In this document: in pieces, positions 35,038-39,893 of the stretch
How positions within the stretch are numbered: position 1 is the stretch's first letter
How the letters are laid out: each line of letters begins with the position of its first letter
NCBI GenBank assembly: GCA_034522055.1
Contig: JAXHLS010000002.1
Coordinates: forward strand, 1,240,001-1,304,000
DNA length: 64,000 nt
Origin: Gammaproteobacteria bacterium
Lineage (GTDB): Bacteria > Pseudomonadota > Gammaproteobacteria > JAABTG01
Direction: 5' to 3'
Translations under genes and position numbers: made by a program
Notes under the pieces: model-generated
What the model saw: the letters and a program-made list of their open reading frames with translations, nothing else
Told to the model about the DNA's origin: nothing
Database searches by the model: none

Positions 35038-35151
35038 TCAGCGGCTGCACCCACAGATATCGGCGGGCTCGAAACGGCTGTAGAGGGCACCGGTGAGGTT
35101 CCTGGCCACGGCATGCGGCTTGCTGATGGGAAGGGTGCGTGCTACCGCCAT
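35038..35151 (-). pseudogene. ndk: ndk remnant: first ~32 codons of nucleoside diphosphate kinase
   Basis: A 37-codon frame reading [20 protein letters not shown], then [12 protein letters not shown], then five unrelated codons and TGA. This is clearly the N-terminus of Ndk, whose family consensus runs M-A-x-E-R-T-L-S-I-I-K-P-D-A-V-x-K-N; the invariant K-P is kept but conserved E, S, I and D are changed to A, P, S and H. About three quarters of the gene, including the active-site histidine region, is gone. It sits just upstream of rlmN, exactly where ndk is found in other gammaproteobacteria. A short product could be made but would not be a kinase. Confidence 0.85.
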
Positions 35152-35215: not shown

Positions 35216-35701
35216 TCAGTAGCGGCCGTGCTGCTTGGAGATATAGTTGCTCATCTCCACATACTGCGAATTCATGCGGCGCAGGATGTCGTGTACCACC
35301 GACACGATGCCCCGCATGGCCTTGTAGACCACCCAGGGATTCCCCGCCACCAGTTCCTCGAAGCGCTCACGATCAAAGGAACAGATCCTGGTGGGCCCGA
35401 GGGCGCGCAGGGTGGCGCTGTGAGGCCGGCCGTCGATGAAACTCATCTCGCCGGTAAGGTCGCCCCGTCCGAGGATGTGTAGCACCGTCCACTCGCCACC
35501 GCCGGTGTCCCGGGTAACGGCCAGGCGCCCCTCTACGATCATATGCAGGCTCTGGCCCGTCTCCCCCTCCTCGAACAAGACCTCCTCGTCTTCCAGCACC
35601 CGGCAGTTACTGATGGATGCCAGCACCTGCACTTCGTCGTCGTCCATATCGGAGGTGAAAGGTGATGCCCGCAGGGCCGCGAATTCGTCATCGGTGCTCA
35701 T
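35216..35701 (-). CDS. Cyclic nucleotide-binding domain protein
   Basis: 161-residue protein with one Crp-type cNMP-binding beta-roll and no DNA-binding domain. The barrel runs from NCRVLEDEEVLFEEGETGQS to GRGDLTGEMSFIDGRPHSAT (phosphate-binding cassette with GEMSF and R near HSATL). The C-terminal 45 residues are helical. Start ATG 35701 is preceded by AAAGGAGAGG, a strong ribosome-binding site. It lies between the isc remnant and ndk remnant, where hscB, hscA, fdx or iscX would be. It may sense cAMP or c-di-GMP and act through a partner. Confidence 0.88.
   Translation of the reverse strand: MSTDDEFAALRASPFTSDMDDDEVQVLASISNCRVLEDEEVLFEEGETGQSLHMIVEGRLAVTRDTGGGEWTVLHILGRGDLTGEMSFIDGRPHSATLRALGPTRICSFDRERFEELVAGNPWVVYKAMRGIVSVVHDILRRMNSQYVEMSNYISKQHGRY

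Positions 35702-38666: not shown

Positions 38667-39893
<1,227 letters not shown>

Follow-up and report, generated by a model that had tools for sequence, protein, structure and literature searches.

What is the 37-codon open reading frame that ends one base before rlmN, and how did it come to lie there? The frame is on the minus strand of the window, the whole 64,000-nucleotide stretch of DNA analyzed here. The initial annotation read it as a truncated ndk remnant upstream of rlmN, closed by a premature stop. An ndk fossil is indeed found at this place. The gene, however, has not been cut short from one side: the missing part is internal and in frame, both ends are kept, and the stop together with the last ~10 codons is the C-terminus of ndk itself.

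Identity of the frame and the deletion junction

The identification was made against G001, the single congeneric genome in the comparison (a 290-contig assembly with 3% contamination). At the same place G001 carries a cyclic-nucleotide-binding-domain gene, an intact ndk of 143 codons and rlmN, in identical order and orientation, and the flanks of the remnant locus are 85-86% identical between the two genomes. Aligned to G001, the DNA matches through the upstream gene and the first 28 ndk codons, with no gap inside that part of ndk; the match picks up again at the end of ndk, in its last codons. The stretch absent relative to the G001 gene is exactly 318 bp, or 106 codons, and is in frame. The remnant is thus made up of the first 26-28 and the last 9-11 codons of ndk, fused in frame (Table 1).

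Table 1. Features at the ndk remnant locus, with positions in the window.
Feature	Position	Strand	Basis or remark
rlmN, intact, 374 aa	33912..35036	-	Pfam RlmN_N and Radical_SAM; dN/dS 0.053 against G001
ndk remnant, 37 codons and native stop	35038..35151	-	in-frame 318-bp internal deletion
Surviving 3' part of ndk and native TGA	35038..35073	-	third BLASTN match to G001, query 678-717
TTCGAG (Phe-Glu) at the deletion junction	35068..35073	-	twice in G001 ndk, codons 27-28 and 133-134
Surviving 5' part of ndk, codons 1-28 including the junction repeat	35068..35151	-	gap-free alignment to G001 ndk
Cyclic-nucleotide-binding-domain gene, just upstream	35216..35701	-	Pfam PF00027, 79 bits; dN/dS 0.094; synteny

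The case for descent from ndk rests on synteny and the close relative, because the Pfam NDK match (PF00334) of the remnant is weak by itself, at 17.4 bits under a cut-off of 27 bits. When G001 Ndk was searched against the whole genome, the sole match was the remnant locus (E 5.9e-5, 66% identity, residues 1-32). Against the two ends of G001 Ndk joined in frame, the remnant is identical at 26 of 37 positions with a BLOSUM62 score of 126; the top score of 100,000 shuffles was 30, in a control for which the join was picked after the alignment had been seen. Compared with bacterial ndk genes (NDK/Nme family, PF00334), the remnant shares the position, the orientation, the start region, the C-terminal codons and the native stop. 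It differs in the deletion of 106 of 143 codons, a figure of 74% that corrects the earlier estimate of about 75% and places the loss inside the gene, and in the neutral substitutions in the codons that are left. The 37 codons fall short of the full Ndk domain of ~140 residues, the center of which is deleted. Also absent is the catalytic-histidine motif N-x-x-H-G-S-D, located at residue 114 in G001 Ndk (NAVHGSD).

The two TTCGAG copies in G001 ndk are separated by 318 bp and share their codon phase; a single copy is left at the junction in the window. The junction ends in G001 read CGTTTCGAGGGCGCC and TTCTTCGAGCCCGCG, and the window sequence reads CGTTTCGAGCCCGCC. Short direct repeats are a known source of deletions that create bacterial pseudogenes. 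The present case resembles such pseudogenes in that one deletion joins two repeat copies, one copy stays and neutral decay follows. What sets it apart is that the reading frame happens to be preserved, along with the native stop and the boundary to rlmN, which leaves something that still looks like a tidy small ORF. The repeat alone is not strong proof of the mechanism, because it is short and, at spacings above 50 bp, G001 ndk holds 62 pairs of 6-base repeats, of which 38 are in phase. We regard deletion between short direct repeats as the likely, rather than proven, mechanism.

The explanation that we consider highly probable is that the 37-codon frame is an ndk pseudogene, generated by an in-frame internal deletion of 318 bp and left to decay neutrally thereafter. 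The ancestor would have lost 106 codons between the two in-phase TTCGAG copies, one close to each end of ndk; replication slippage or end-joining at this microhomology would be the simplest route. The deletion would have taken nearly the whole nucleotide site together with the catalytic histidine, and judging from the chemistry of the family such a product could not be an NDP kinase. An in-frame deletion leaves the native stop and the TGA-C-ATG junction in place, and should therefore be non-polar on rlmN. The stub, seen in one genome only, would then have decayed without constraint, as is indicated by the substitution counts given below. PMC12934123 also lends support to the ndk pseudogene explanation.

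Two side observations concern gene order and the G001 sequence. A short tandem duplication in G001 (GGACCCGCTGAC...) spans the ndk stop and the rlmN start, and the N-terminus of its RlmN differs from that in the window. Elsewhere in the window, an ispG-like ORF, named by eye (38667-39893, plus strand), lies away from the rodZ-hisS stretch in which E. coli carries ispG; G001 is colinear with the window over that part.

Selection on the surviving codons and the age of the loss

Both flanking genes are under strong purifying selection, as judged from their dN/dS values against G001 (Table 1). For the first 28 codons of the remnant, the dN/dS with both branches combined is 0.46. Polarization with four outgroup genomes, which are distant, rests on 12 changes; it assigned 9 nonsynonymous and 3 synonymous changes to the window branch, and 0 and 2, respectively, to the G001 branch. 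These codons hold ~63 nonsynonymous and ~21 synonymous sites, which puts the window branch at the neutral ratio. The comparison of nonsynonymous to synonymous changes between the remnant and the flanking genes gave a Fisher p of about 0.001-0.003. The surviving codons carry missense changes at residues that do not vary among the five relatives examined (E4A, S8P, D13H and others). Eight residues in the first 28 codons differ from G001, rather than the four conserved residues counted in the initial annotation.

Since the 9:3 count equals the neutral ratio, the remnant apparently went unconstrained for a large part of the time since the lineages of the window and G001 parted, although the numbers are small. 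These few changes suggest that ndk was lost early on the window branch and that the loss is old relative to the G001 split, at odds with the earlier description of a recent loss. Most of the window-branch changes in the surviving 5' part (minus strand) go from A/T to G/C, again in very small numbers. A mutator or base-composition footprint of the ndk loss was considered and dropped, as the differences are balanced over ~8.9 kb of aligned flank (348 vs 354).

Then, could the frame have been kept open for the sake of rlmN? The peptide itself would be non-functional, while translation of the stub would bring ribosomes to restart at rlmN one base on. Continued translation would also be consistent with the strong ribosome site of the remnant and with a frame free of stops and frameshifts. 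Its start has an anti-SD match of -9.5, the best of six ndk starts compared (the others range from -5.4 to -6.6), the match of rlmN itself is weak at -3.7 kcal/mol here and -3.2 in G001, and the TGA-C-ATG junction is preserved as in G001. The intact frame, however, is what chance would give: 76-90% of simulated neutral histories with 8-20 substitutions (substitutions only) stayed stop-free, so the open frame of the remnant is unsurprising. One deletion in three would be in frame by chance, a share that rises between in-phase repeats, and the ORF is known from a single genome. We consider such a lead-in role rather unlikely. Rfam returned no RNA feature within the window, and a scan for promoters and terminators gave nothing useful.

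It is very improbable that the organism truly has an intact ndk here and that the deletion is an assembly or sequencing artefact. The position of the deletion between short repeats would suit such an error. The surviving ends, however, bear neutral missense changes at invariant residues, which are not expected from the mere mis-join of an intact gene; moreover, the locus lies inside a 3.7-Mb contig and the missing ndk segment was not found elsewhere in the genome. The junction sequence was also scanned for in viral contigs and was not found in them.

ndk across the class and candidate replacement kinases

The claim that ndk precedes rlmN in many gammaproteobacteria is borne out by the relatives, in which ndk lies directly upstream of rlmN at 18 of 20 ndk loci; the same holds for at least 74 of 80 rlmN loci. 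An intact gene thus occupies the orthologous position both in G001 and in members of the class. A single scan of genome_contigs gave no record that came nearer than 64% in RlmN. The absence of ndk is not rare, because 39 of 367 good genomes in a class-wide sample, this genome included, gave no ndk match. Several of the genomes without ndk are near-complete (G077, G179, G079, G108, G125 and others) and some are single-contig; G079 had no match to ndk, PPK2 or PPK1. When the rlmN loci of 16 other ndk-less genomes were inspected, two of which were fragmented or at a contig end with little upstream DNA, none carried a convincing ndk remnant. The present genome is like these in being near-complete yet devoid of ndk, and differs in that a remnant can still be read at rlmN. 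Absence is common but the fossil is not, and a readable ndk stub is unusual.

The same comparison of ndk-rlmN junctions, proposed in the initial annotation, led us to reject as scarcely credible the reading of the frame, which is complete, has a ribosome site and adjoins rlmN, as a conserved short leader peptide gene merely resembling the Ndk N-terminus: relatives hold full-length ndk at that spot, the 37-codon peptide is conserved in none examined, the 16 other ndk-less genomes have no such peptide at rlmN, and the ORF evolves neutrally and matches both Ndk ends.

With the ndk pseudogene as the preferred reading, the question becomes how NTPs are made. The genome searched comprises 5.14 Mb in 7 contigs and is 98% complete. 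A second ndk, for which the initial annotation had proposed a search, was found neither with PF00334 nor with G001 Ndk across the whole genome, the remnant locus being the only Ndk match. Genes for adenylate kinase (adk), pyruvate kinase (pyk) and PPK1 (ppk1) are present, and a cell with no other ndk presumably leans on adenylate kinase, pyruvate kinase and the like.

PPK2 of the P. aeruginosa type phosphorylates NDPs. G001 has two two-domain PPK2 genes and two single-domain genes of this type (TIGR03707), with loci L130 and L131 noted. The present genome has two two-domain genes, assigned by NCBIfam to polyphosphate:AMP phosphotransferase (G000:C2:419386-420906 and G000:C6:830150-831601), and the two NDP-type genes of G001 were not found in it. 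We rejected the idea that a gain of polyphosphate:NDP kinases (PPK2, TIGR03707) compensates for the loss, as G001 has two and this genome only the AMP type. Relative to G001, the genome is without ndk and without two further candidate NDP-phosphorylating genes, a comparison to be read with care given the 290 contigs and 3% contamination of G001. It is distinctly improbable that ribosomes continue to reach rlmN by way of the start and frame of the stub, and that this lineage, being without the NDP-type PPK2 enzymes of G001 as well, makes all its NTPs by unspecialized kinases.

Meaning of the loss

A literature search on this ndk-rlmN loss returned no paper. This kind of fossil is fairly ordinary; what is new is the internal in-frame nature of the deletion, the junction repeat, the neutral decay and the absence of NDP-type PPK2. 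The locus raises the question of whether an in-frame loss of ndk was favored because rlmN is spared, and that of which kinase supplies NTPs when both ndk and NDP-type PPK2 are missing. It offers a readable case in which a near-universal housekeeping kinase was lost from a non-reduced genome of 5.1 Mb: comparison with a close relative shows where the deletion ended on either side, how much is missing and how the remainder has decayed. The absence of ndk from ~10% of the sampled class suggests that its loss has been tolerated repeatedly.
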